DNA from: Nitrospirota bacterium
Lineage (GTDB): Bacteria > Nitrospirota > Thermodesulfovibrionia > Thermodesulfovibrionales > UBA6898
Assembly: GCA_016214855.1 (NCBI GenBank)
Contig: JACRMT010000016.1
Coordinates: 1 to 64,000 of the forward strand
Length of the DNA: 64,000 nucleotides
Reading direction: 5' to 3'
Both the position numbers and the translations under genes were made by a program. The notes beneath the pieces are model-generated. The model was not told where the DNA came from. It worked only from the letters and a program-made list of their open reading frames with translations, and ran no database searches. How positions within the stretch are numbered: the stretch's first letter is position 1; each line of letters opens with the position of its first letter. Of this stretch, positions 415-12,587 are shown one piece after another.

Positions 415-461
415 TAGGTATAGCTCTGGTATTCAACTTGCAAATACTGTTCCATGGTGAC

Positions 462-518: not shown

Positions 519-743
519 ATGAAAGCAGACAAGACACTTGATATCAAGGGACTTACTGACCAGAGGCCAAAGGAAGTGACAAGGAACGTTCTGAGCATGA
601 TGGCAAAAGGCCAGATACTCAGGGTCATAGCTGACGATTCAGGGGCAAGACAGGCCCTTATTGCACTATGCGAATATTCTGGTTACCGTCTGCTCTCCCT
701 GGAAGAAGAGAGTGGAGTCATCTATTTTAATATACAGAAATGA
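519..743 (+). CDS. TusA-family protein lacking the catalytic cysteine
   Basis: A 74-residue protein with the TusA/SirA layout: N-terminal beta strand (LDIKGL), a helix-forming stretch, a strand with V-x-A-D-D, and a C-terminal G-Y-R-L-L segment ending in a strand. In true TusA the motif after the first strand is Cys-Pro-x-Pro, and that Cys carries the persulfide. Here the equivalent stretch reads T-D-Q-R-P, so the sulfur-carrying Cys is missing and only the second Pro remains. Another Cys lies later in the chain but outside the motif. The start is the ATG after GAAGAGGCAAGCGC; the frame is open further upstream but that part looks non-coding. It heads a plus-strand run with DsrE- and DsrH-like genes, so a scaffold or regulatory role in sulfur relay is inferred. 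Confidence 0.8.
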   Translation: MKADKTLDIKGLTDQRPKEVTRNVLSMMAKGQILRVIADDSGARQALIALCEYSGYRLLSLEEESGVIYFNIQK

Positions 744-769
744 ATAAGAGAGCAAAGTCTTTCTCCCCG

Positions 770-805
770 CATGCCCGGTATCTGCCTTTGGCAGTGCCGG
801 GCATG
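770..805 (+). promoter_or_regulatory. Intercistronic hairpin
   Basis: A perfect 9-bp stem (CATGCCCGG at 770-778 with CCGGGCATG at 797-805) encloses an inner stem CTGCC/GGCAG (782-794). No U-tract follows, so it is more likely an mRNA processing or stabilising element, or an attenuator, between the TusA-like gene and the next gene than a simple terminator. Confidence 0.45.
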
Positions 806-859
806 ACCCCCTGCGCTGTCAGGAGGATAACGGCAAGACCAGATATCAGGAGGTATCGA

Positions 860-1132
860 GTGAAAAAAAGAATTGCAGTTGTTGCACGCGACAGGCAGGA
901 TGAGGCGCTAAGAATGGCTGTAGGACTTACTCTTATGGATGACACAATCGATGTCTTTGTGCTTGACAGGAAACTGGAGGATTCTGAAAACAACAGGCTG
1001 AATATCGAGACCATGGAGTTGATGGACATGAAGATGTACACAAATTCAGCCGAAAACAGCGGTATGGAATATCTTTCCACCGAACATATGGCCAGGAAAT
1101 TTCCGGGCTATGACACCGTGCTGCCGTATTAA
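860..1132 (+). CDS. DsrE/DsrF-like sulfur relay protein
   Basis: A 90-residue protein starting at a GTG preceded by a strong AGGAGGT at the right spacing. The frame is open further upstream, but that segment overlaps the hairpin and looks non-coding. The sequence begins with a beta strand (KKRIAVVARD), a helix (EALRMAVGLTL) and a second strand (DVFVLD), the alpha/beta pattern of the DsrE/TusD superfamily. It ends in a tyrosine-rich tail. There is no cysteine, so it cannot itself carry a persulfide. It is followed 23 bases later by a DsrH-like gene. Together with the DsrE-like gene at 1340 the three could form a TusBCD/DsrEFH-type complex. Family membership is by fold pattern. Confidence 0.7.
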   Translation: MKKRIAVVARDRQDEALRMAVGLTLMDDTIDVFVLDRKLEDSENNRLNIETMELMDMKMYTNSAENSGMEYLSTEHMARKFPGYDTVLPY

Positions 1133-1155
1133 TCGATGTAACAAGGGAGGAACTG

Positions 1156-1326
1156 ATGAGGATCCTGCATGTGGTCAAAGAAGAGCCTGACACAACAACA
1201 GGCACGATATTTTTGGAGCAGGCAATGATAGATCATGTGACTGTCATTGATCTGAGAGAAAACAGGGATTATGACTATATCGTCAGCCTGATGGAATCAC
1301 ATGACAGGGTAATTTGCTGGCAATAA
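1156..1326 (+). CDS. Short DsrH/TusB-like protein
   Basis: A 56-residue protein with a good Shine-Dalgarno (GGGAGG) seven bases before the ATG. It opens MRILHVVKEEP, like the Leu-His-x-Val start of TusB/DsrH. It closes YDYIVSLMESHDRVICWQ, which closely resembles the conserved C-terminus of that family (tyrosine, hydrophobic helix, E-H-D-R-V, aromatic end). Family members are usually about 95-100 residues, so the central part is strongly shortened. A single Cys sits near the C-terminus, not at the usual DsrH position. It lies 13 bases before the DsrE-like gene. Confidence 0.65.
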   Translation: MRILHVVKEEPDTTTGTIFLEQAMIDHVTVIDLRENRDYDYIVSLMESHDRVICWQ

Positions 1327-1339
1327 GGAGGCGTGAGAC

Positions 1340-1642
1340 ATGAAACTCGGCATACTGGTTAATACGGATAAACATCTTGACCATATTATCGGCATGGTGA
1401 CGGCTGCACTTGGCAGAGGCCATGAGATCACGATATTTGTGATGGACACCGGCACGAGACTGTTGAAAGATCCTGCTTTTGCCGGACTGTCCATCCTTCA
1501 CGGAGTATTGATGAGCTTCTGCGACCTCAGCGCACAGAAGGAAGGAATAAAAAAAGAAGGCTTGCCTGACGAAATCCTGAGCGGCAGTCAGTATAATAAT
1601 GCAGTCATGGTGCATGAATCTGACAGAGTTCTGGTGTTTTAG
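1340..1642 (+). CDS. DsrE-like protein with conserved cysteine
   Basis: A 100-residue cytoplasmic protein of the DsrE/F superfamily. It has a first strand (KLGILVNT), a helix with a paired His-Ile pattern, a second strand (HEITIFVMD), and a central helix containing Cys61 in SFCDLSA. Cys61 is placed where active DsrE-like proteins carry their persulfide cysteine. The C-terminus is a strand (SDRVLVF). GGAGG lies eight bases before the ATG. Of the four small sulfur proteins at this end it is the only one with a plausible catalytic Cys in a recognised motif. Sulfur transfer to TusA is inferred. Confidence 0.8.
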   Translation: MKLGILVNTDKHLDHIIGMVTAALGRGHEITIFVMDTGTRLLKDPAFAGLSILHGVLMSFCDLSAQKEGIKKEGLPDEILSGSQYNNAVMVHESDRVLVF

Positions 1643-1677
1643 CGGTTTCTGTTTCTCCCGCACAGGAGGTGCCTATC

Positions 1678-3351
1678 ATGGATATCAGGAAGACCGAGCA
1701 TGTCCTGCTCGTGTCCTTCTGCACCCTTATCGTCCTGCCCATTCTCTACATCTACCGCTCGGCAGATAACAATACGTTCACCAGCTGGCGATGGGTCTTC
1801 TCTCAGTCAGGTATCCTGCAAGTATTTTTCTTCCTTTTACCGGCATTGCTTTGCGCCTATGCCCTGTCGCGCCTGAGGTTTTCCGGGCGCAATGCATATG
1901 CATTTCTTTTTCTCCTGTCTTTCGTTTCGATCATCCCTCTCTGGCAGGAGTCCGAGTCAATCATTGATGCGTCCAGATATTTTGTCCAGGCCAAATCCCT
2001 GAAAGAGCACGGGATACGGTATTTCCTTGATCATTGGGGCGACAAGATCCATGCCTGGACCGATATGCCGCTGGTGCCCTTTCTCTACGGCCTTGTGTTT
2101 GCCGTTTTTGGAGATTCCAGGCTCTGTATTCAGGTGTTCAACACCACCCTCTTCGCGCTGACAGGCGTAATGACATTCCTTGTCGGGAAAAGGCTTTGGG
2201 ATGAGGAAACAGGGCTGCATGCAGGACTGCTTCTGCTGGGAATGCCCTACCTGCTTACGCAGGTGCCTCTGCTGCTTGTCGATCTGCCGACAATGTTCTT
2301 CCTGACCCTTTCCATCTATACCTTTCTTCATGCGATTGAAAAGGGAGGGCTTCGCTGGACAGTTGCTGCCTCAGTCGCATTATGCTTGGCCATTTTTGCA
2401 AAATATTCGACCTGGCTGATGCTTTCTGTTATTCCGATAATCTCATTTGTTTCCGGAACGGGACAGCCGAAGAAGACATTCAGCAGAACATGTTCTGTTC
2501 TTCTCATTGCAGGTCTTCTTGCAGGGGGTGTCATCTTTGTCCGCTATGATCTTTTCCGGGACCAGATCATGATCCTCAGGACGTACCAGTGGTCAGGCCT
2601 CAGCCGCTGGCAGGAAGGTTTTCTCTCGACGTTCCTGTACCAGACACATCCGTTCGTGACCATCCTCGCACTCTGCGGAATATACCGGGCGATCCAAAAG
2701 AAGGATATACGTTTCCTTATTCCAGCATGGTTCGCTGTTTTGGTACTCATCCTCCAGATAAAGAGAATACGGTATATTATCCCGCTCTTCCCGCTCTTTG
2801 CTCTCATGGCAGCATATGGTCTTCAACTGGTCAAAGACAGGCCCATCAAACAATTCATTTCCCTGTGCATCGCGGCCTCGTCGCTGGTTCTCGTATACAG
2901 CGCATATCTGCCGTTCCTGAACACTACAGGCATGGCAAACCTGAAACATGCCGGGCAGTATCTCAACACCCTGAACTGCGATTCTGTTGAGGTCTATGCC
3001 CTGCCGCAGGAAAGCTCGTCAGGCAGCACATTCGCAGCAATACCGATACTCGACTACCATACGGTCAAAAAAATCGTCTCTCCCCAGGAGTGGCCCGGGC
3101 ATATGCAGGACAGCACAACGCAGAAATCTTCCCTGAGGTTCACCTGGGAGACAACAAAGCCTGATCTGTATTCTCAGCCCGAGACAGACAAAAGCTGTGC
3201 TGTTGTCATCATTTCGAGCAGGGCGCTCGACCCTGCAGCCGGGGCATTCATTGGAAAAGATCCTGGTTCCCTGAAGATGCTGAAAGAGTTCGGACAGACA
3301 TCAGAGGTCTTTAAATACCAGACGTTCGTGACGATCCTCAGGCAGGAATAG
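1678..3351 (+). CDS. GT39-type (PMT/ArnT-like) membrane glycosyltransferase
   Basis: A 557-residue polytopic membrane protein with about a dozen hydrophobic segments and a soluble C-terminal domain from about residue 430. The first large loop holds Asp97 in DASRYFVQAKSL, matching the acidic catalytic residue in loop 1 of dolichyl- or polyprenyl-phosphate-sugar transferases, followed by a P-L-x-P-F-L-Y segment. Such enzymes move a sugar from a lipid carrier to protein or lipid at the outer face of the inner membrane. The ATG at 1678 is chosen because CAGGAGGTGCC precedes it; an in-frame GTG at 1669 overlaps that site. It follows the DsrE-like gene by 35 bases and may be co-transcribed, but a link to sulfur metabolism is not evident. 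Confidence 0.85.
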   Translation: MDIRKTEHVLLVSFCTLIVLPILYIYRSADNNTFTSWRWVFSQSGILQVFFFLLPALLCAYALSRLRFSGRNAYAFLFLLSFVSIIPLWQESESIIDASRYFVQAKSLKEHGIRYFLDHWGDKIHAWTDMPLVPFLYGLVFAVFGDSRLCIQVFNTTLFALTGVMTFLVGKRLWDEETGLHAGLLLLGMPYLLTQVPLLLVDLPTMFFLTLSIYTFLHAIEKGGLRWTVAASVALCLAIFAKYSTWLMLSVIPIISFVSGTGQPKKTFSRTCSVLLIAGLLAGGVIFVRYDLFRDQIMILRTYQWSGLSRWQEGFLSTFLYQTHPFVTILALCGIYRAIQKKDIRFLIPAWFAVLVLILQIKRIRYIIPLFPLFALMAAYGLQLVKDRPIKQFISLCIAASSLVLVYSAYLPFLNTTGMANLKHAGQYLNTLNCDSVEVYALPQESSSGSTFAAIPILDYHTVKKIVSPQEWPGHMQDSTTQKSSLRFTWETTKPDLYSQPETDKSCAVVIISSRALDPAAGAFIGKDPGSLKMLKEFGQTSEVFKYQTFVTILRQE

Positions 3352-3352
3352 C

Positions 3353-3399
3353 TGTTCCTTTTGGGACAACTATTCCCTTTCATTGTTCCTTTCGGAACA
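3353..3399. promoter_or_regulatory. Two tandem dyads, candidate activator sites
   Basis: Two dyads of the form TGTTCC-N4-GG(A/G)ACA lie at 3353-3368 (second arm GGGACA) and 3384-3399 (second arm GGAACA). Their centres are 31 bp apart, about three helical turns, on one DNA face. They sit 100-145 bp upstream of the -24 element at 3498, where sigma-54 activators usually bind. They could also act as a weak terminator for the gene ending at 3351. Confidence 0.5.
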
Positions 3400-3497
3400 G
3401 TTCACAAATCAGCAGGGTGAACGACACTGCAGGCCTCCCGGTATCAAGCCTCTGTATTAACACCATATTTCCCTTTTTCCGGACCGCTCGGACCTGA

Positions 3498-3513
3498 TGG
3501 TATGCCACTTGCA
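3498..3513 (+). promoter_or_regulatory. Candidate sigma-54 promoter of the yedE-tusA operon
   Basis: TGGTATGCCACTTGCA fits TGGCACG-N4-TTGCA with two substitutions in the -24 half and a perfect -12 half. GG (3499-3500) and GC (3511-3512) are ten bases apart. Transcription would start near 3524, downstream of the ATG at 3502, which supports the GTG at 3577 as the true start of the permease. Confidence 0.65.
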
Positions 3514-3576
3514 ACAATCCCCTTGAAAAACAATTCGTTGTTGACAGAGGCAAATTCAATTCGTGGAGGTAGAAAG

Positions 3577-5004
3577 GTGGAAAGTGATGCAAAAAAGAAG
3601 AAGATATGGGCGTTGGTGATCATCGGATTCTTCGCCCTCGTAAGCATAGTGACATACGCTTACAATGATTATTATATTTATCTCTCCGCCTATCTCTGGT
3701 TCGGTCTCATCTACGGCATGTGCCTGCAATACGGCAGGTTCTGTTTTGCCTCAGCCTTCAGGGACCTGTTCGCCGTCGGCGTGCCGAGAATGGTTGTAGG
3801 CATCATGACCGCCACGTTATTTTTCGGACTCGTCTCTTCATTTGTGACAGCTACCGGATTCAGCACGTTCCATGCCTCTCCTTCAGGGATTCACTCCATG
3901 ATCGCAGGTCTTATATTCGGGGTCGGGATGGTCTTTGCAGGCGGCTGCGCCTCTGGCTCACTCTATAAGGCAGGAGAAGGAAACGGGGTGGCTCTGCTCG
4001 TAATATTATCCATCAGCGTAACACAGTCGTCCTTTGCAGATATCGGCGGCTGGCTCAATTACCTCGTCCCGGCTTCCTGGCACGCCTCAGCACTGTCAAA
4101 GAACCTTCCGGCGGTGATAAATGTTGGAGATGGCTGGCTCGACCAATACCTTGCAGGCTATGTCTGGAACCATCCAACCGTCACATTCGCAAAGCTGCTC
4201 GGCCTGAAGAACGAATCAGCGTCAGGCGCATTTGCAGGAAATCTTCTTGTCGGCGTCATCTTACCTGCGCTTCTCATGCTGACCGTGGTCTATTTCATCT
4301 GGGGGAAGAGGGCGTTTGTGCGCGACACGCTGAAAGCAAAGGGAAGTGTCAGCCTCCGTGACCATCTCACCGGTTTCTGGCAGATGATTCTTTCATCAAA
4401 GAGGACCTCGTTAGCAGGCCTCTTTCTCGGCATAGCCTGCGGACTCCAGATGTTCGTCATTGAAGGTCTGCGCATAAAGTTCGGGATCAGAAATGCAGGA
4501 GAGATCCTCACGCGGCTCGGCTCGGATTTCGGCCTGTCGATCAGGGGTACCGTGTTTGACCCAGGCTACTGGTATGTGACCACGCAGGAGGCCCAGTGGG
4601 TAGGCTGGGTCATGCACAAGCTCGGCTGGAACAATATGGACAATATCTTTTTCGGCTATATCAACGGCATACCGAACCCTGCCCTGAATCCTGCTGACTG
4701 GATGTCCCTGGCCCTTATAGGCGGTGCAGCAATCATGGCGCTGATGAACAATGAGTTCAAATTCAAAAAACCGACCATGGAACTTGCGACATGGGCCATT
4801 GTCGGCGGCTTTCTCATGGGAATCGGCTCACGGCTCGGCCTCGGCTGTAATGTGGGCGCATTCTTTGTCCGGGTCTCTAACGGCGATGTCGGCGGATGGC
4901 TCTTCGGGCTCGGCATGATAGGCGGAGCCTTTGTAGGGGTGAAATTCTTCAACTGGTGGACAGAGCGGAAAATGGCCAAAGAACTTGCCGGAATGGAAAT
5001 ATGA
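3577..5004 (+). CDS. yedE: YedE/YeeE-family sulfur-compound permease
   Basis: A 475-residue inner-membrane protein of the YeeE/YedE family; characterised members import thiosulfate and others are tied to selenium or sulfur uptake. It has two homologous halves, each with a buried cysteine motif: GGCASGS at 122-128 and GLGC at 421-424. A further Cys56 lies in YGRFCFASAFRD. These cysteines are thought to relay the substrate through the pore. The start is GTG because GTGGAGGT lies at proper distance and the sigma-54 start site excludes the upstream ATG. TusA follows after 28 bases, the usual partner that takes over sulfur in the cytoplasm. The substrate here (thiosulfate, polysulfide or sulfide) is not known. 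Confidence 0.92.
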   Translation: MESDAKKKKIWALVIIGFFALVSIVTYAYNDYYIYLSAYLWFGLIYGMCLQYGRFCFASAFRDLFAVGVPRMVVGIMTATLFFGLVSSFVTATGFSTFHASPSGIHSMIAGLIFGVGMVFAGGCASGSLYKAGEGNGVALLVILSISVTQSSFADIGGWLNYLVPASWHASALSKNLPAVINVGDGWLDQYLAGYVWNHPTVTFAKLLGLKNESASGAFAGNLLVGVILPALLMLTVVYFIWGKRAFVRDTLKAKGSVSLRDHLTGFWQMILSSKRTSLAGLFLGIACGLQMFVIEGLRIKFGIRNAGEILTRLGSDFGLSIRGTVFDPGYWYVTTQEAQWVGWVMHKLGWNNMDNIFFGYINGIPNPALNPADWMSLALIGGAAIMALMNNEFKFKKPTMELATWAIVGGFLMGIGSRLGLGCNVGAFFVRVSNGDVGGWLFGLGMIGGAFVGVKFFNWWTERKMAKELAGMEI

Positions 5005-5032
5005 TGCAGAGAGAAAAAGGAGGAACACTATC

Positions 5033-5287
5033 ATGGCGGTAAAATTCGAAAAAATATCCGAAGGCTCCTATGCCCTTGACTGCACAGGGTATGTCTGCCC
5101 GCATCCTCAGATTTACACCAAGAAAATGCTCGAAAAGATCAAGGAAGGAGATACCCTGGAAGTCACCTTTGACAATCCTTCTTCAGGTGAATCGATCACG
5201 GCCATGTGTTCATCGCTTGGCAATGAAATAATCGAGCGGACCCAGCAAGGCGGCAAAATTATCTTCAAGATAAGGAAGGCGGCATGA
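5033..5287 (+). CDS. tusA: TusA sulfur-carrier protein
   Basis: An 84-residue TusA/SirA-family protein. The motif Cys22-Pro-His-Pro follows the first strand (YALDCTGYV), and Cys22 is the residue that accepts a persulfide. A second Cys lies four residues earlier and a third in TAMCSSLG. The C-terminal strand IIFKIRK is typical. The ATG at 5033 follows AAGGAGGAACACTATC. The gene lies directly behind the YedE permease, a pairing seen in many genomes and sometimes as a fusion. It likely accepts imported sulfur and passes it to cytoplasmic enzymes. Unlike the TusA-like gene at 519 its active site is intact. Confidence 0.93.
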   Translation: MAVKFEKISEGSYALDCTGYVCPHPQIYTKKMLEKIKEGDTLEVTFDNPSSGESITAMCSSLGNEIIERTQQGGKIIFKIRKAA

Positions 5288-5315
5288 CACCAGCGTCATT
5301 GCCGGAGGTGTAGAC

Positions 5316-5504
5316 ATGGACAGAACATTCATCATCGCAATTCTTGTAGTCACCTTATTTACCGGATTTTTGATCGGGTACAGCGTTCCGCCCTTTATCC
5401 AGGCCGGCGTATTCAGCGGCCGGAAAGAAAAAGGAGTAGAGTCCCAGATAGACAAGGGGATGGAGCAGCACTATAAGGATCTCTTTAAAGATGAAGAAAA
5501 GTAG
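5316..5504 (+). CDS. Small single-pass membrane protein A of the yedE-tusA unit
   Basis: A 62-residue protein with an uncleaved-looking N-terminal membrane helix (about residues 4-23, FIIAILVVTLFTGFLIGY), a Pro-Pro turn and a charged soluble tail ending HYKDLFKDEEK. GGAGGTG precedes the ATG. It resembles the next gene in length, layout and the tail motif (H-x-K-D-L-[FY]-K). No known domain. It sits where reported YTD sulfur-disproportionation clusters carry small hypothetical proteins, so it may be one of those. A role anchoring TusA or a rhodanese to the permease is a guess. Confidence 0.75.
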   Translation: MDRTFIIAILVVTLFTGFLIGYSVPPFIQAGVFSGRKEKGVESQIDKGMEQHYKDLFKDEEK

Positions 5505-5540
5505 TACGGATCTGCATAGGCATTTCAGGGAGGATAACTG

Positions 5541-5750
5541 ATGGAAAAGAAATTTATTGCAGTCATTGTGGTCGTCTTTATGGTCGGGGTGTTGATAGGA
5601 TTTAAGACCTCTTATGGCATCCCGATCCAACCCGGATATTTTGAGAAGCAGGAAGCCCCGGCGTACGGCTCCTCGGAAACCAAGGCCATTGGCTCGGAGT
5701 TCGGCAAGGAATATGAAGAGCATTTCAAGGACCTGTACAAGGCAGAGTGA
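5541..5750 (+). CDS. Small single-pass membrane protein B of the yedE-tusA unit
   Basis: A 69-residue protein, apparently paralogous to the preceding one. It has an N-terminal membrane helix (residues 5-20, FIAVIVVVFMVGVLIG), a G-I-P-I-Q-P turn where the neighbour has V-P-P-F-I-Q, and an acidic tail ending HFKDLYKAE. AGGGAGG precedes the ATG. There is no cysteine, so it is unlikely to carry sulfur itself. The intact shared tail suggests a docking segment for a common soluble partner. Function unknown. Confidence 0.75.
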   Translation: MEKKFIAVIVVVFMVGVLIGFKTSYGIPIQPGYFEKQEAPAYGSSETKAIGSEFGKEYEEHFKDLYKAE

Positions 5751-5820
5751 TGCAGAAACAGCCAGACATCAGAAACAGTTGCAGGCCATACAAAGTCAGA
5801 TTGCTCAGGGAGGCAGACGC

Positions 5821-6282
5821 ATGAAAAAAATACTTATTGCTGTTGATGACAGCAAGGGGTCAGAGGCAGCCGTTCGCACCTTTATCGATCTCTTTCCGTC
5901 AAACCGTCCCGATACCGTAGTGCTTCTCTATATCCAGAAGATCGAAGGCCGCTCCCTTATGGACGAGATGCTCGGGGAGGCAGAGATGTCAACCCTGAAG
6001 GAGATGCTGAAAGGTACAGAGTACCAGGAATTTCTGGACAGGAAGGCCGCAAAGGTCATCTCATTTCACACTGACCTCTTTAAGGAAAAAGGGATTGTCG
6101 GAATAAAAACGCTTGTCAGGGAAGGCCATCCTGCAGACGAAATACTCAACGCTGCAAAGGAAGAAGGTGCAGGCATGATAATCATAGGGTCACGGGGCAG
6201 GAAAATGCACGATCTTCTTATGGGCAGTGTCAGCAGGGAGGTGGCCAACAGGGCTGATATACCTGTGCTTCTTGCCAAGTAA
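5821..6282 (+). CDS. Universal stress protein (first copy)
   Basis: A 153-residue UspA-family protein. It begins KKILIAVDDSKGSEAAV, the first strand and adenine-contacting region. It ends with the ATP-binding signature G-S-R-G-R-K-M-H-D-L-L-M-G-S-V-S followed by the last strand (DIPVLLA), i.e. the G-2x-G-9x-G-S pattern of nucleotide-binding Usps. The ATG at 5821 follows CAGGGAGGCAGACGC; an upstream extension of the frame overlaps the previous gene and is not likely translated. It is one of three Usps in this locus. They probably sense ATP or redox state and adjust transport or partner enzymes. Confidence 0.9.
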   Translation: MKKILIAVDDSKGSEAAVRTFIDLFPSNRPDTVVLLYIQKIEGRSLMDEMLGEAEMSTLKEMLKGTEYQEFLDRKAAKVISFHTDLFKEKGIVGIKTLVREGHPADEILNAAKEEGAGMIIIGSRGRKMHDLLMGSVSREVANRADIPVLLAK

Positions 6283-6370
6283 GATCATGCAGGGAAAATT
6301 GAAGAGGCGGCTTCCGCTGATCCAATTCTTAACTAACAACCGTAACACTGAAAGGGAGGCAAACGAGGCT

Positions 6371-7393
6371 ATGAAAAAAAGAATTATGCATCTGATGGTA
6401 GTAACGATGTTCCTGCTGGTCTCAGCAGGCCTGTCACAAGCTGCAACGTGGGCACATCCTGAATTGCTGCTGACACCGGCAGATGTCGAGAAGAACGCGA
6501 GCAAGGCAGACTGGGTCATTGTGGACTGCAGGGATCTGAAGGATTACGCAAAAGGTCATATCCCGGGCGCCATCAGCTTTGGCAAAGAGTGCAAAAAAGC
6601 TTTGCGGGACAGCACATCAAGGGTATTCAAGGATCCAAAGAAATATGAGACTATTTTCGGCAAGTCCGGCATAGGCAATAACACACACGTTGTCTTTTAT
6701 GGCGAGCACAAGACCACTGACACCTTCAAGGATGTGAGCGTCTCCTTCTGGATAATGGAGTATCTCGGTCATGACAAGGCACATGTACTCAACGGCGGTA
6801 TTGATGCATGGATGAAGGCAGGCAAAAAACTGACGAATGAACCTGCCATGAAAAAAGAGACAAAATTTGCGGCAAAGGTCGTAGCAAACAGGATCGCCAC
6901 TACCGATGAAATACTTCAGATCGCCCAGGGCAAAAAGAAGGGCATCACCCTCATAGATTCCAGAACCGAAAAAGAACATGCGGGCGAGGATATCCGCTCC
7001 CTGCGCGGCGGCTATGTTCCCAACACAACCAAGAACATCTCTCATAAAAACACTATGGATCAGGAAAAAGATCCAAAGACGGGTAAAGACGTTGACAACG
7101 GCTATCTTTCGCCTGACCGGGTTGCCGGGTTCTTCAAAGACTTCGACAAGAGCAAGCGTACGATTGGATACTGCCACACCGGAACGCGTTCAACCCTTAC
7201 GTATCTTGAGATGAGACTGCTTGGCTTTAAGGAGCCTGCAAACTGGGATGATTCCTGGATCGTCTGGGGCAACAATCTCAAATACCCGGTGGCTGACGAA
7301 CAGTGGATCAACTTCGAGAGGCTGAAGAAGGCTGAAGATGATCTCAAGGCCCTCAAGGATGCCATGCCGAAAAAAGAGGGAGCAAAGGAATAG
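6371..7393 (+). CDS. Periplasmic double-rhodanese sulfurtransferase
   Basis: A 340-residue protein with a signal peptide (MKKRIMHLMVVTMFLLVSAG, cleavage near SQA) and two rhodanese domains. The N-terminal domain carries VIVDCRDLKDYAKGHIPGA and looks structural. The C-terminal domain has the active loop Cys268-H-T-G-T-R-S. This is the thiosulfate/mercaptopyruvate sulfurtransferase arrangement, exported to the periplasm. The start is the ATG at 6371, 17 bases after a GGGAGG; the signal peptide begins there. It could cleave thiosulfate or move sulfane sulfur toward YedE. The C-terminus has a Lys/Glu-rich helix. Confidence 0.9.
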   Translation: MKKRIMHLMVVTMFLLVSAGLSQAATWAHPELLLTPADVEKNASKADWVIVDCRDLKDYAKGHIPGAISFGKECKKALRDSTSRVFKDPKKYETIFGKSGIGNNTHVVFYGEHKTTDTFKDVSVSFWIMEYLGHDKAHVLNGGIDAWMKAGKKLTNEPAMKKETKFAAKVVANRIATTDEILQIAQGKKKGITLIDSRTEKEHAGEDIRSLRGGYVPNTTKNISHKNTMDQEKDPKTGKDVDNGYLSPDRVAGFFKDFDKSKRTIGYCHTGTRSTLTYLEMRLLGFKEPANWDDSWIVWGNNLKYPVADEQWINFERLKKAEDDLKALKDAMPKKEGAKE

Positions 7394-7435
7394 TCAGGTT
7401 GCACTTCGACTATGTATGTGCTATTTTTTAGAAGA

Positions 7436-7463
7436 CAGGCCGGCAGTCTTTTCTGCCGGCCTG
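7436..7463 (+). terminator. Strong hairpin after the double rhodanese
   Basis: A perfect 11-bp inverted repeat (CAGGCCGGCAG, six-base loop, CTGCCGGCCTG). The bases after it (attatcatt) are only weakly U-rich. It may end or attenuate transcription, or protect the upstream message, since genes continue on the same strand. Confidence 0.5.
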
Positions 7464-7495
7464 ATTATCATTCCGCAAAAAAGGGGGGATTCTAA

Positions 7496-7912
7496 ATGCG
7501 TATATTAGTTGCTCATGATGGTTCAGAACACGCGGATAAGGCACTCTCAAAGGCTGCAGACATAGCAGCGATGACAAAGTCCGCTATCGTCGTACTCTCT
7601 GTTGTCCCTGACCTCTGCATGATGGAAATAAGCGATGACGACTGCAAAAACATGTATAGCATCATGACCGAGGAATCTGAAAAAAGACTGACTGCATTGA
7701 AGGATGACCTTTCCAAAAAAGGCGTTGAAATGGAGACTGCTGTACTGTTTGGAAACGCTGCAGACATCATAATCAGCACCTGCGCCGACAAGAAGATCGA
7801 TCTGGTTGTGGTCGGCTCCCACGGCAGGCATGGAGCCAGAAAATTCCTGCTTGGCAGCGTCTCCTCCAGGGTCGTTGATCATGCAGCTTGCGATGTCCTG
7901 GTTGTGAAATAA
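7496..7912 (+). CDS. Universal stress protein (second copy)
   Basis: A 138-residue UspA-family protein of typical length. The first strand RILVAHDGSEHADKAL and the ATP loop G-S-H-G-R-H-G-A-R-K-F-L-L-G-S-V-S are both present, so nucleotide binding is expected. Three Cys residues (CMM, DDCKN, TCAD) are more than most Usps carry. GGGGGG lies close before the ATG. It lies between a rhodanese and the YeiH-like transporter gene, 61 bases upstream of the latter. Confidence 0.9.
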   Translation: MRILVAHDGSEHADKALSKAADIAAMTKSAIVVLSVVPDLCMMEISDDDCKNMYSIMTEESEKRLTALKDDLSKKGVEMETAVLFGNAADIIISTCADKKIDLVVVGSHGRHGARKFLLGSVSSRVVDHAACDVLVVK

Positions 7913-7973
7913 AGAAAACAGTATAAAAAGCAGTGCCGTAAATAAAACTAAACGTTCATAAAAGGAGGCAGAT

Positions 7974-9566
7974 ATGGATGGGGAAAAGAGGTCACCCGTA
8001 ACATTAATAGTGGGGCTGATTCTTCTTGCGTATGCCCTTATTCTCAGGAGCCAGAATACGGCTTTAACACCCAGCGGACTCGTCGCTGTCGCGGAGTACC
8101 TTAAAACAGGCGGTACAATCGGCACGCAGATTTCCGTTGGCTTATGGTCAGGGGTTATCATCTGTCTGATCGGCATCTGGAATCTTGCGGTGCCGTCCAT
8201 GACATCAAAGTTTGACAAACTTGTGCGTGCCCCTATGGCCGGCATCGGAACTATAATCACTCTTTGTTATATAACACGTTATTACATGGAGCCCATCTTC
8301 AAGATATGGGGAAAACTGGCGAAACCTGCGCTCGGTTTTGATATGGCAACTATCTTCGGCCTTAACTACATCCTCCTCGGGATCATCCTCGGCATTATCT
8401 GGGTCAATACTATCGGCATTCCTTCCTGGATGCAGGCAGGTGTCAAGACCGCCCGTCTGGCCATGAAGATGGGGGTTATCACGCTGGGAGCAATGTACAG
8501 CATTACCGAGCTCAAGTATCTTGGCGGGTTGAGTATTGTGATGGTCGCTACATTCGTTATGGGAACTTCCCTACTTGTCCTATGGCTCGGCAAGCTTGCT
8601 CAGGCACCCCGTCCATTAATCGGTGTGCTGTCTGCCGGTATGGGCGTCTGCGGCGTATCAGCTGCAGTTGCTGCAGCCCCGGTCGTGAAGGCCAGAGGCG
8701 TTGACATGGCCTACTCGATCGGCATGCTGCTGCTAATAGGTGTTGTAGGCCTTTTTGTTTTCCCACCCGTAGCAAAGATGGTAGGCATGAACGAGCTTCA
8801 GTTCGGGGCCTGGGCAGGCACCGGCATCCTCAACTCAGCCCAGGTTGCGGCAGCTGCCCTGATATTTGACCCCAACACCATAGAGACCCTGAAAGTCGCG
8901 GAAATATTTAATATCACCAGAATCCTGTTCCTCCCCTTCATAGTCATTGTGCTTGCAATATGGTTTGCAAAGGGAGAGGAAGAGTCTGAGAAAGGCAAGG
9001 TCAATCTTGGCAAGGTCCTCATTGACAAGTTTCCGCTCTTTGTCCTCGGTTTTATCATCATGTTTGCTTTCAGTTCAACAGGAGTCTTCACCCCTTCCGG
9101 GCAGGAACTCCACGGCAAGCACTTCTACAGCTTCAAGCCTGCCGAAAGCAAGGAAGTAAGAACCAGGGACTTGAAGAAGATTCAGGCATTTATTGAAACC
9201 GGTTCAGTCACCGACCCAAAGGTCAAGGAAGCGCTTGAAAAACTTGTAGCCGACAGGCAGGTAACCAGTGCTGATCAGACTGACCTTGTCCTGAAAGCTC
9301 AGGATTTTACAACTGACAAAGACATGAAAAAGGTATTTCAGGACGCTGACAAGAAAGTCCAGGCAAAGCCCAAGACCATGGAGATGATGAGGGAATATAT
9401 GATGTGGTTCTTTGCCTTCGGTCTTATCGGCCTTGGGATGCAGATCACCTGGTCGACCATCCGACAAGCAGGAGGAAAGGCAGCGCTAATAGGTGTGGTT
9501 TCCGGAGTTGCAAAGGCAGTACTTTCTTTCTTTGTCTGCTGGCTGTTAATCAAGGGAACCATCTAA
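7974..9566 (+). CDS. YeiH/PSE-family (putative sulfate/sulfite exporter) transporter with an inserted domain
   Basis: A 530-residue polytopic membrane protein of the YeiH/UPF0324 'putative sulfate exporter' family. The conserved core includes GVLSAGMGVCGVSAAVAAAP and AGTGILNSAQVAAAA. Usual members have about 330-360 residues. This one has an extra N-terminal membrane region and a soluble insert of roughly 100 residues (about 380-470, rich in Lys, Asp and Thr) before the last two membrane segments. AAAAGGAGG precedes the ATG. Relatives are implicated in export of sulfite, sulfonate breakdown products or anions, so release of an oxidised sulfur product is plausible but inferred. Confidence 0.85.
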   Translation: MDGEKRSPVTLIVGLILLAYALILRSQNTALTPSGLVAVAEYLKTGGTIGTQISVGLWSGVIICLIGIWNLAVPSMTSKFDKLVRAPMAGIGTIITLCYITRYYMEPIFKIWGKLAKPALGFDMATIFGLNYILLGIILGIIWVNTIGIPSWMQAGVKTARLAMKMGVITLGAMYSITELKYLGGLSIVMVATFVMGTSLLVLWLGKLAQAPRPLIGVLSAGMGVCGVSAAVAAAPVVKARGVDMAYSIGMLLLIGVVGLFVFPPVAKMVGMNELQFGAWAGTGILNSAQVAAAALIFDPNTIETLKVAEIFNITRILFLPFIVIVLAIWFAKGEEESEKGKVNLGKVLIDKFPLFVLGFIIMFAFSSTGVFTPSGQELHGKHFYSFKPAESKEVRTRDLKKIQAFIETGSVTDPKVKEALEKLVADRQVTSADQTDLVLKAQDFTTDKDMKKVFQDADKKVQAKPKTMEMMREYMMWFFAFGLIGLGMQITWSTIRQAGGKAALIGVVSGVAKAVLSFFVCWLLIKGTI

Positions 9567-9580
9567 AGGAGGCATGAAAA

Positions 9581-9727
9581 ATGGCTGAAGAAAAAGCAAC
9601 GACAGAAGAACAAAAAAAGATGGAGGAGCGCGCTCTCAGCGTCTTTGCCTCTGAAAAAAAGGAAGATATTACAGCGCTGATAATTGCCTTTGTCCTTGCG
9701 ATACTGGTGCTTATCGCACTGAAGTGA
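9581..9727 (+). CDS. 48-residue membrane protein behind the YeiH-like gene
   Basis: ATG at 9581 follows AAAGGAGGCATGAAAA, a clear ribosome site. The frame ends at TGA 9725-9727. The product has an acidic/basic N-terminal half (MAEEKATTEEQKKMEERAL) and one hydrophobic segment near the C-terminus (ALIIAFVLAILVLIAL). It starts 14 bases after the transporter stop and ends seven bases before the next Usp start, so it is surely in the operon. It is probably a small accessory subunit of the transporter, by analogy with small partners of anion transporters. Confidence 0.72.
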   Translation: MAEEKATTEEQKKMEERALSVFASEKKEDITALIIAFVLAILVLIALK

Positions 9728-9734
9728 TTTCGCT

Positions 9735-10298
9735 ATGATACGTAAGATACTGGTGGCTACGCACGGCACCGAAAATGCGATTCAGGCAGAGTTACATGCC
9801 ATACAATTGGCTCAGGCATTGGGTGCACGTCTTCATGGTCTCTATGTCATTCATAAGGACTGGGGGTCTCTGGTCGGCATAGAATGGCTCCACTCCTCTG
9901 AAAAGAGAATGGATTTTTACCGCTACGCCGAATCAGAACTGTACCGGATGGCAGATGCGGCACTGGCCGGGCTCGTTCAGCGTGCAGGGGCGCACGGCAT
10001 AACCGTAACGTCTTCTGTCAGGGTGGGTGACCCCGGGACAGTCATTGCCGAAGAGGCCGGCGGGACCAACGCAGACCTCATTGTGATCGGCAGCAATGGC
10101 AGCAAAACATCCGAGGAATACAGGGCAAAGGTTTCCCTTGTCAAACTGATGAAGGCAGCGCCTTGTTCGGTTCTCCGGGTAAAAGCAGATGCCGGCAGAG
10201 GGGGTGAGAAGCTCAGGGAGCAGGGACATGCTCAAGATTTTCAGGAAACCCAATGGAACAAACTCGGGAAAAGTAGGAAATGTGAGACGGGTTTGTAA
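9735..10298 (+). CDS. Universal stress protein (third copy), with altered C-terminus
   Basis: A 187-residue Usp-family protein. It has the opening strand RKILVATHGTENA and a late V-I-G-S-N-G-S segment in place of the canonical ATP loop; the G-S-(S/T) end is replaced by E-E-Y-R-A-K-V, so ATP binding may be lost. The domain ends near VLRVKAD (residue about 153). The last 34 residues are Gly/Lys-rich and unlike a Usp, and the stop codon lies inside the left end of a repeat element (10292-10405). The native end was probably altered by that insertion or earlier sequence drift. Confidence 0.85.
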   Translation: MIRKILVATHGTENAIQAELHAIQLAQALGARLHGLYVIHKDWGSLVGIEWLHSSEKRMDFYRYAESELYRMADAALAGLVQRAGAHGITVTSSVRVGDPGTVIAEEAGGTNADLIVIGSNGSKTSEEYRAKVSLVKLMKAAPCSVLRVKADAGRGGEKLREQGHAQDFQETQWNKLGKSRKCETGL

Positions 10299-10405
10299 AA
10301 AGCTCCGGAGGCAAGGCGCGCAAAAAATGAGGAATGAGGCGTAATTACAGTTACGTCGCAGTGACGGGTTTTGAAGCGCAACGCAGCATACGGACTTTTT
10401 ACAAA
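10292..10405. repeat. 114-bp MITE-like element with terminal inverted repeats
   Basis: The ends TTTGTAAAAAGCTCCG (10292-10307) and CGGACTTTTTACAAA (10391-10405) are inverted copies with one extra base in the left copy. The interior has no gene. I recall closely similar 'TTTGTAAAAAG...CGGACTTTTTACAAA' units in other anaerobic bacteria, but no database check was made. It abuts the Usp stop codon and could also fold as a transcription-ending structure. Confidence 0.65.
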
Positions 10406-10472
10406 GCCGGCAGACGTGGTTAACCATTTTATCAGCCACCTGTCATGAACAGGCGGTAAAGGAGGAAGCATC

Positions 10473-10970
10473 ATGAAACGCACATTGATCGCATTACTGT
10501 TTCTCACCGTGGCCTTGGCAGGGTTTTACACCATGGCAGCTGCAGGACCCTATCCGGATGCTGTCATTAAACAGGCAGAGAGTCTGAAGGCAGACGCTGA
10601 TGCAAAGAAAGACATGCCTGCATCCCTTCAGGGCATCAAGCTTATCGACGGCAAAGAATTAAAAAAGTGGATGGATGAGAAGAAGAAGTTCGTGATCATC
10701 GACAACAGGAACAAGGAACAGTTCACCAAAGAGCACATAACCGGTGCCACTCTTATTACCGTAGATGAACTGATGGGAAACCCAAAGCTGTCTGACGCGC
10801 TGGACAAGAAAGTCCCGCTTGTACTCTATTGCAACGGCGTTAAATGCTGGCGCTCACCGGCAGCTGCCCTTCTTTATCAGAGCCTCGGCTTCAAGGAAGT
10901 CTACTGGTTCAGAAACGGACTGCCCGAATGGGTCAAGCTTGACTACCCGACAGTTGAAGGCGGCAAATAG
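10473..10970 (+). CDS. Periplasmic single-domain rhodanese
   Basis: A 165-residue protein with a signal peptide (cleavage near AAAG, residues 22-25), then a helical spacer and one rhodanese domain (IIDNRNKEQFTKEHITGA). The active-site loop begins at Cys120: C-N-G-V-K-C-W-R-S, with a second Cys five residues on that could form a disulfide. GGAGG precedes the ATG at 10473. It is separated from the upstream Usp by the MITE-like element and followed by a terminator, so it may be its own transcript. Sulfane sulfur transfer in the periplasm is the likely role. Confidence 0.88.
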   Translation: MKRTLIALLFLTVALAGFYTMAAAGPYPDAVIKQAESLKADADAKKDMPASLQGIKLIDGKELKKWMDEKKKFVIIDNRNKEQFTKEHITGATLITVDELMGNPKLSDALDKKVPLVLYCNGVKCWRSPAAALLYQSLGFKEVYWFRNGLPEWVKLDYPTVEGGK

Positions 10971-11649: not shown

Positions 11650-11738
11650 TTAGCACGGATAGTGCACGTTTTGACGAAGCAGGTCCAATGCGGAAGGTCA
11701 ATAATAATGAAAGGGTGACAATAAAGGAGGTAACGGAA

Positions 11739-12587
11739 ATGAGGAAAATGGCATTCGCAGGTTTAACCTTACTGATTTTTGTTTGCGTAATCGCAGTCGG
11801 AGTCGCCCCTGCTGCTGAACTGAAATGGGTAGGGTGCGATATCCTTGAACTCTCGGTAATGCAGTCCATATCAAAGGAGTATGAAAAAAAGACAGGCGTG
11901 AAGATAAGCCTTCAGGAAGCCGGCGCCACCAGGGGAATCGTTGACGTGGCTGCCGGAAAAGCCGACATCGGTGGCACGTGCAGACATGCAGTTGCGAGGA
12001 ATGAAGAGCGCGGGGTTAAGCTGGTCCCCGTGGCTTGGGACGCCATTATAGTGGTCACTCATAAATCAAACCCTGTGGATAACCTGACCCTTGAACAGAT
12101 ACGGAATATTTTTACCGGCAAGACTTCCAGTTGGAAGAGCGTTGGAGGCCCAGACCGGCCTATCCAGGTCGTTGCTCGGGAAGGCAAACTTTCCGGTGTG
12201 GGCCAGATGGCTCGCAAGCTTGTGTTCAAGAACCCGGACCAGGAATTTACTCCGAAGGCGCTACTTTTCAAATCCACCGGACCGGTTGAAGAGGCCGTGG
12301 AAAAGACCCCGTGGACTATTGCCTTTACAGGGATAAGCAGCGCTACAAAGCGGTCGTTCAAGGTGCTGAAGATCGAAGGGAAAGCCCCATCGTATAACAC
12401 CATTGCACGTGGGGAGTATATGCTGTACCGGCCGCTGTATCTTGTTACCAGACATGATGCAAGTCCGGAGGTTAACAAGTTTATCTCCTTTGTGCTCAGC
12501 GATGAAGGGCAGGGCATAATCAAAAAAGAAAATACTGTAACGCTCAAGGACGGTCAGGCGCTCTGGCAGAAATACGGCAACTATTAA
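11739..12587 (+). CDS. PstS-like periplasmic anion-binding protein
   Basis: A 282-residue protein with a signal peptide (cleavage near APAAE, about residue 26) and a type II periplasmic-binding fold of the PstS/ModA-like group. Visible motifs are a ligand-loop segment (GATRGIVDVAAGKADIGG), the strand VPVAWDAIIVVTHKSNPV, and LTLEQIRNIFTGKTSSW, typical of phosphate-binding homologues. The ATG is chosen for its AAAGGAGGTAACGGA. No ABC permease or ATPase genes follow, so it is an orphan here. It may bind phosphate or another oxyanion such as tungstate or sulfate. Confidence 0.85.
   Translation: MRKMAFAGLTLLIFVCVIAVGVAPAAELKWVGCDILELSVMQSISKEYEKKTGVKISLQEAGATRGIVDVAAGKADIGGTCRHAVARNEERGVKLVPVAWDAIIVVTHKSNPVDNLTLEQIRNIFTGKTSSWKSVGGPDRPIQVVAREGKLSGVGQMARKLVFKNPDQEFTPKALLFKSTGPVEEAVEKTPWTIAFTGISSATKRSFKVLKIEGKAPSYNTIARGEYMLYRPLYLVTRHDASPEVNKFISFVLSDEGQGIIKKENTVTLKDGQALWQKYGNY

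Follow-up and report, generated by a model that had tools for sequence, protein, structure and literature searches.

We analyzed a 64,000-nucleotide stretch (the window) of a Nitrospirota bacterium genome (GenBank assembly GCA_016214855.1, positions 1 to 64,000 of contig JACRMT010000016.1, here C16), in which a locus of 16 genes, TusX to Rhd2, all on the + strand, encodes a YeeE/YedE-family importer, TusA-fold proteins, and a DsrEFH set. The locus occupies the first bases of this 182-kb contig of a 3.3-Mb genome that is 100% complete; position 1 of the window is the contig start, and the stretch 5′ of TusX lies beyond the contig end. The first operon is headed by a predicted sigma-54 (-24/-12) promoter, TGGTATTCAACTTGCA (427..442, + strand), and comprises TusX (519..743; PF01206, 38 bits), DsrF type II (860..1132; 90 amino acids [aa], GTG start), DsrH type II (1156..1326; 56 aa), DsrE type II (1340..1642; PF02635), and PMT, a 557-aa GT-C glycosyltransferase of the PMT_2 type (1678..3351; PF13231, E=1e-12). 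The second, headed by a predicted sigma-54 promoter, TGGTATGCCACTTGCA (3498..3513, + strand), encodes the importer YedE (3577..5004; PF04143, 120 bits), a TusA with a CPHP motif (5033..5287; PF01206, 77 bits), the paralogous small single-transmembrane (TM) proteins Smp1 (5316..5504) and Smp2 (5541..5750), the universal stress protein Usp1 (5821..6282; PF00582), and the periplasmic double rhodanese Rhd1 (6371..7393; PF00581 twice, evident signal peptide). The set very probably takes up sulfur atoms and passes them from protein to protein to the sulfite reductase machinery of the cell. We judge it slightly better than an even bet that this is a sigma-54-switched, two-operon system that imports periplasmic sulfur and relays it to the Dsr pathway in the oxidative direction.

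A YedE query against 84,980 genomes returned 80 related loci, whose hosts belong to the Nitrospirota, Gamma-, Beta-, and Alphaproteobacteria, Rokubacteria, and Desulfobacterota; gene-recurrence counts are limited to loci with sufficient flank, and their denominators therefore differ by gene. The -24/-12 motif occurs at three sites in the 64 kb, both strands included, against 0.18 expected from first-order shuffles, and two of the three sit exactly at the heads of the TusX and YedE operons. In ~15 of the 80 related loci it is also found near the start of YedE; it stands 5′ of TusX/DsrF in several relatives and 5′ of Rhd1 where Rhd1 is separate. Several relatives encode an NtrC-type regulator and a histidine kinase divergently 5′ of TusX. 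The two operons are predicted to be co-regulated under one sigma-54 switch. Because the second promoter covers an earlier ATG at 3502, the YedE start is most likely the GTG at 3577. A palindrome ~100 bp 5′ of that promoter, TTGTTCCTTTCGGAACAG (3383..3400, no strand assigned), is a tentative candidate for an activator site; it is the sole match in the 64 kb, and one similar site lies 5′ of TusX in locus L042. A sigma-70 scan found promoters at chance level, and a terminator scan found one notable stem-loop, 3′ of Rhd1 (7436..7463, + strand; 11 pairs, 9 of them G-C, no good T tract), which may be a terminator or an attenuator.

The transport cysteines of the importer are strongly conserved. C56, C124, and C424 of YedE are all present in 78 of 78 relatives and fall in conserved motifs that align with the S. 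thermophila YeeE structure 6LEO. We use the name YedE500 for the YeeE/YedE-family clade formed by the window YedE and its relatives. TusA is adjacent to YedE in 77 of 78 loci and these TusA proteins form their own clade (support 97), and the CPHP TusA is predicted to be the dedicated partner of YedE500. The catalytic cysteine of Rhd1 is found in the second domain only (GYCHTGTRST), where it is retained in 42 of 42 relatives. Among known systems, the importer compares with TsuA/TsuB (YeeE/YeeD) and SoxT, which share the YeeE fold family, three conserved cysteines, and an adjacent TusA-like partner; YedE500 proteins, however, are very divergent and 475-500 aa long rather than ~330-350, and their occurrence is tied to Dsr genes, not to sox.

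The small soluble proteins of the first operon connect the locus to the YTD cluster, yedE-tusA-dsrE-chp2-chp1, whose two CHPs are DsrF/DsrH-like soluble proteins that form DsrEFH type II (PMC13293266, PMC13047784). Cys61 of DsrE is invariant in 27 sequences, including those of YTD, and in 40 of 40 relatives, and the best PDB match of the DsrE profile is Allochromatium vinosum DsrE (2HY5_A), with the conserved cysteine aligned. The DsrF model (AlphaFold pLDDT 93.9) superimposes on A. vinosum DsrF (2HY5_B) with a DALI-scale Z of 9.6 (root mean square deviation 2.2, 85 residues aligned), while the DsrH model (pLDDT 91.6) matches 2HY5_C with a Z of 4.6 (53 aligned, 24% identity) that is tied with unrelated Rossmann-like folds. 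We recovered Desulfobulbia YTD loci in which TusA-DsrE-DsrF-DsrH stands beside a ~420-aa YedE, and both DsrF and DsrH of the window align with their YTD proteins; therefore, the counterparts of the CHPs are the genes at 860-1132 and 1156-1326. This rules out Smp1 and Smp2, which belong to another family and which a first-pass annotation of the window had counted among the YTD members. DsrF, DsrH, and the Cys61-bearing DsrE are predicted to form a DsrEFH type II relay. As in the DsrEFH type II of cable bacteria, there are three adjacent genes, a DsrE cysteine, and synteny with tusA and yedE, but the order here is F-H-E (PMC13293266). DsrE shares 24-34% identity with the YTD form of Desulfobulbia and 39-62% with forms from Nitrospirota, Pseudomonadota, and Rokubacteria, which is consistent with subtype 1 of the same study. 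The DsrEFH type I of A. vinosum has the same folds and the catalytic DsrE cysteine but sits in the rdsr operon, and some Pseudomonadota hosts carry a type I DsrE in addition to this cluster. TusX forms a clade apart from both the YedE-adjacent TusA and the YTD TusA. The first-pass annotation had called it a cysteine-less TusA; the CPxP cysteine is indeed lost, here and in several relatives (some orthologs keep it), but Cys51 is present.

The related loci place these genes in a wider cluster. The recurring set is DsrF-DsrH-DsrE-PMT-YedE-TusA-Smp-Usp-FAD oxidase-B12 radical SAM-SPASM radical SAM-GT2-rhodanese. Near YedE, the relay genes recur in 44/60 (DsrF), 49/60 (DsrH), 50/61 (DsrE), and 77/78 (TusA) loci. 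Similar frequencies hold for PMT (55/63) and for four further enzymes: one resembling FAD amine oxidases (53/65), a radical SAM protein with a B12-binding domain (52/59), another of the SPASM type (41/54), and GT2 (37/49). Smp1 recurs in 68/78 loci, Usp in 45/73, and Rhd1 in 39/47. PMT, which has many invariant residues across relatives, was missing from the first-pass list; the genes that were listed there are all present. Of the 41 loci with the complete five-gene core, 36 keep the order DsrF-DsrE-PMT-YedE-TusA on one strand, so the arrangement is far from chance. The genome of the window has the remaining enzymes elsewhere, with the FAD oxidase-B12 radical SAM pair at C4:90.8-93.9 kb and the radical SAM-GT2 pair at C18:112.5-114.6 kb. 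Within this genome, no sigma-54 site was found 5′ of either pair, of a second PMT-DsrH-DsrE set, or of a lone DsrF, so co-regulation of these dispersed parts is unsupported. In the collection of papers covered, a search that paired YedE/YeeE and TusA with radical SAM or glycosyltransferase returned nothing relevant, and the larger cluster, which adds enzymes of sugar transfer and radical chemistry and membrane proteins with GYG tails, is apparently undescribed.

Several further arrangements of these genes were seen. The second PMT-DsrH-DsrE set (C4:367.8-370 kb) lies beside two heptosyltransferase-like genes, the whole stretch being C4:367.8-372.6 kb (L021:6811-11606); its DsrE is 54% identical and keeps the cysteine, and the pairing with heptosyltransferase-like genes recurs in L090, L095, and L250. 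The lone DsrF (C4:318 kb) was rejected as part of a DsrEFH set, having no DsrE or DsrH beside it; it adjoins an ABC exporter. A module of a ~380-aa exported protein, an FtsX-type permease, and an ABC ATPase adjoins the lone DsrF or the GT2/radical SAM genes at L205:6379-10038, L207:8885-11947, L239:9427-12580, and L124:11410-14830. Two Betaproteobacteria loci, L063 and L066, have two tandem YedE500 genes with TusA and a rhodanese between them. A PBP_like_2 binding protein is encoded 3′ of the locus (window 11727-12587); its close paralog (L249:12566-13420) adjoins the C18 radical SAM-GT2 pair, and a PBP fragment is also found near the cluster in locus L084.

The 3′ part of the locus is peripheral. 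It consists of Usp2 (7496..7912; PF00582), a 530-aa YeiH-type transporter (7974..9566; PF03601, 162 bits), the 48-aa single-TM protein Smp3 (9581..9727), Usp3 (9735..10298; PF00582), and the single-domain periplasmic rhodanese Rhd2 (10473..10970; PF00581, CNGVKCW, evident signal peptide), and it is parted from Rhd1 by the strong stem-loop, with no sigma-54 site ahead of the block. The transporter meets PF03601 and falls under the curated cut-off of TIGR00698 (77 bits versus 233). Of 47 loci, only 10 have YeiH in the neighborhood of YedE, 3 have Usp3, and 2 have Rhd2; this tail is not conserved. Smp3 also stands beside YeiH in L038, L056, and L078, and in the Burkholderiales loci L038 and L078 YeiH-Smp3-Usp3 forms an independent block 5′ of DsrF, which suggests a mobile transporter module. 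The gap between Usp3 and Rhd2 (window 10283-10412) contains an imperfect inverted repeat, GGTTTGTAAAAAGCTCC...GGACTTTTTACAAAGCC, that resembles a small mobile or dispersed repeat. The first-pass annotation was right about the yedE, canonical tusA, Cys61-bearing DsrE-like, and two small paralogous membrane protein genes, as well as about two periplasmic rhodaneses, three universal stress proteins, and a YeiH-type transporter with a small partner (borne out by Pfam matches, signal peptides, and the 48-aa single-TM protein). It had joined all of them into one path that ended in export of an oxidized product. A relay of membrane importer, TusA, and cysteine-bearing DsrE survives from that path; the export step is unsupported, given how rarely the tail genes are linked to YedE.

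The occurrence of the cluster follows that of dsr genes. A whole-genome check for sat, aprAB, dsrAB, and qmo in the genome of the window found dsrAB, sat, aprBA, and qmo-like genes. Among 246 Nitrospirota genomes, 39 have both YedE500 and dsrA, 4 have YedE500 only, 70 have dsrA only, and 133 have neither (Fisher p=4e-12); for DsrF type II and dsrA, the numbers are 72 with both, 6 with DsrF only, 37 with dsrA only, and 131 with neither (p=5e-27). DsrF type II is present in 42 of the 43 YedE500-bearing Nitrospirota genomes. Completeness is 70-85% in the four of these that lack dsrA, and all YedE500-bearing Nitrospirota genomes that are at least 90% complete have dsrA. Outside the Nitrospirota, where 40 hosts are nearly all Pseudomonadota with one Rokubacterium, dsrA was detected in 33 (30 over the cut-off and 3 partial or weaker). 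Six of these hosts were inspected: four have dsrAB followed by a type I DsrE, a fifth has the same on the other strand, and in the sixth the layout is unsettled by the gene calls. In the 2-Mb group f6, dsrA is present and neither DsrF nor YedE500 was found in the sample; thus, the DsrF/YedE500 set is not needed for having dsrAB. The simplest reading of this distribution is a Dsr-linked import and relay role that is independent of disproportionation. The genome of the window also has a dsrMKJOP-like set on C7 (L019:3451-10326); next to it come two genes of the DsrE family and one for a TusA with CPYP, which may be a second sulfur relay. On C2 (L017:2843-8378), HdrBC-like, MMPL-type, DsrE/DsrF/DrsH-like, and pyridine-nucleotide-disulfide oxidoreductase genes stand together, possibly as a sulfide:quinone oxidoreductase locus.

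Around the gene identities, conserved cysteines, synteny, sigma-54 sites, and co-occurrence with dsrA, we infer a substrate, a direction of flow, an order of partners, and roles for the Smp proteins, the PMT/radical-SAM module, and YeiH. With thiosulfate, polysulfide, or S0 as the source, Rhd1 and the membrane-anchored Smp1 and Smp2 would offer sulfane sulfur to YedE500, and the sulfur would pass through the three-cysteine channel to the CPHP cysteine of the dedicated TusA. TusA would hand it to Cys61 of DsrE in DsrEFH type II and from there to DsrC/DsrAB, which would yield sulfite, and AprBA/Sat would then give sulfate. PMT and the enzymes encoded elsewhere (FAD oxidase, B12 radical SAM, SPASM radical SAM, and GT2) most likely build or decorate an envelope component at the import site. 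Published work favors this route: in vitro, sulfur transfer from DsrEFH type II to DsrC is unidirectional (PMC13293266), and the YeeE-like SoxT brings in sulfur for oxidation (PMC11582611). Four points weigh against the import-and-oxidation scheme. YedE500 scores far below the NCBIfam TsuA equivalog cut-off (89 bits versus 400), which bears on the substrate; the co-occurrence statistics ignore phylogeny; DsrD beside dsrB is a weak Pfam match only (E=0.026), which does not settle the dsr type; and a sulfur relay alone does not account for the conservation of PMT, the FAD oxidase, the radical SAM enzymes, and GT2.

In another explanation, YedE, TusA, and DsrEFH supply persulfide to the radical SAM enzymes for biosynthesis rather than energy, and PMT, GT2, and the FAD oxidase complete a sulfur-containing glycolipid, glycan, or cofactor. 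We consider this unlikely. PMT, the FAD oxidase, both radical SAM enzymes, and GT2 are conserved as strongly as the relay genes, and all are retained in the genome of the window although they are scattered. In addition, in what is presumed to be Desulfurivibrio alkaliphilus AHT2, TusA-DsrE-DsrF-DsrH stands beside SPASM radical SAM, B12 radical SAM, YedE, GGYG protein, PMT, and FAD oxidase genes; if so, YTD genes are accompanied by the extra module in a cultured species as well. The near-perfect tracking of dsrA, however, is a better fit to energy metabolism. Other sulfur donors, such as further TusA/DsrE sets, are also encoded in the genome, and no radical SAM protein reaches the cut-off of any NCBIfam family for sulfur insertion.

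Members of the Smp1/Smp2 family of small membrane proteins have a single TM helix, a basic N terminus, and an exposed tail, which contains PAYG in Smp2. Of the 73 loci in which TusA is followed by a protein of this kind, 67 have at least one [AG]YG motif (the remainder have SYG or none was found), and 13 have 3 to 15 copies, e.g., GGYGEMGGYGEM..., with up to 15 in tandem. In 2.84 Mb of DNA scanned, 26 TM proteins have at least three such motifs, and nearly all lie beside YedE, one of them beside the YedE of the presumed D. alkaliphilus. These proteins match no Pfam or NCBIfam family above cut-off, Sgp included; a sub-threshold Prion_octapep match looks compositional, and an assignment of the GGYG proteins to a named Gly-rich radical SAM substrate or other known family was rejected for want of an NCBIfam match. 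They may resemble the sulfur globule proteins (Sgp) of purple sulfur bacteria, which are Gly/Tyr-rich, exported proteins of dsr-bearing sulfur oxidizers, but the Smp proteins are short, have one TM helix as an anchor, and are encoded next to an importer. By analogy they may also recall radical SAM substrates: mycofactocin-type systems likewise pair a SPASM radical SAM enzyme and a GT2 resembling MftF with a small protein that contains Tyr and Gly. The GT2 of the cluster scores below cut-off against both TIGR04283 (97 bits) and MftF (85 bits). The differences are that no MftA-like precursor was found, that the small proteins are membrane anchored, and that there are an extra GT-C enzyme, FAD oxidase, and B12 radical SAM protein. 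It is a long shot that the GYG motifs are modified by the radical SAM enzymes and/or by GT2 and PMT to give a membrane-anchored, sulfur-binding or -carrying component that feeds YedE.

The first-pass annotation had read the locus as the YTD cluster, a genomic mark of sulfur disproportionation, with YeiH exporting the oxidized product. We think a YTD-type disproportionation module quite improbable here. The likeness is real: both have a YeeE/YedE-family transporter, a CPxP TusA, a DsrE with the conserved cysteine, and DsrF- and DsrH-type small proteins, and DsrEFH type II is the complex of YTD. YTD proteins rise in Desulfolithobacter during thiosulfate disproportionation (PMC9751629), and for Nitrospirota and Desulfobacterota YTD has been put forward as a candidate marker (PMC12998232). 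However, the YTD YedE proteins form one clade (support 97) apart from YedE500 and score 57-96 bits against the YedE500 profile, versus ~750-870 for YedE500 members, and the window TusA belongs to the YedE500-adjacent clade rather than the one that holds YTD TusA. Nor is the gene order that of the contiguous YTD cluster: it is TusX-F-H-E-PMT-YedE-TusA, with a glycosyltransferase between F-H-E and YedE-TusA, a cysteine-lost TusX, two sigma-54 promoters, and added small membrane proteins, Usp, and rhodaneses. Many dsrA-bearing Pseudomonadota carry the cluster, and several of them have oxidative-type dsr operons in which dsrAB precedes a type I DsrE, and DsrEFH type II is present in only 25 of 63 known disproportionators (PMC13293266). 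The YeiH tail, as described above, is rarely linked. A separate canonical YTD cluster elsewhere in the genome was also sought and rejected, the only other YedE being a 362-aa protein at C4:537 kb with no TusA called beside it and the only further DsrF being the lone one at C4:318 kb. The locus is a variant of the YTD/DsrEFH type II kind, not YTD proper, and gives no evidence of disproportionation.

An assimilatory, tRNA-thiolation, or selenium-handling (YedE/YedF-like) set is very improbable. In its favor, the NCBIfam selenium YedE/FdhT and YedF models are the best sub-threshold matches to YedE and TusA; against it, all of these scores are far below cut-off, and a three-gene DsrEFH and linkage to dsrA would be unexpected for selenium metabolism.

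Together with the related loci, this one is relevant to the question of how sulfane sulfur gets through the inner membrane to reach the Dsr enzymes, and to a second question, on which published views differ: whether YTD or DsrEFH type II is a sign of disproportionation or of oxidation (PMC12998232 versus PMC13293266). That another clade of YedE and TusA accompanies DsrEFH type II in dsrA-bearing Pseudomonadota, some of them with oxidative-type dsr operons, argues against a role in disproportionation only. The most interesting and surprising link is that between the sulfur relay, the glycosyl and radical SAM enzymes, and the GYG-tailed proteins. The linked PMT, FAD oxidase, two radical SAM enzymes, GT2, and GYG-tailed proteins are not part of the YTD descriptions that we found, and the module is present beside the YTD genes of what is presumed to be the cultured D. 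alkaliphilus, where it can hence be tested. If the GYG motifs are modified as envisaged above, these would be modified proteins of a new kind and candidate carriers of sulfane sulfur between periplasm and cytoplasm, in the inward direction, in Dsr-based sulfur oxidation.

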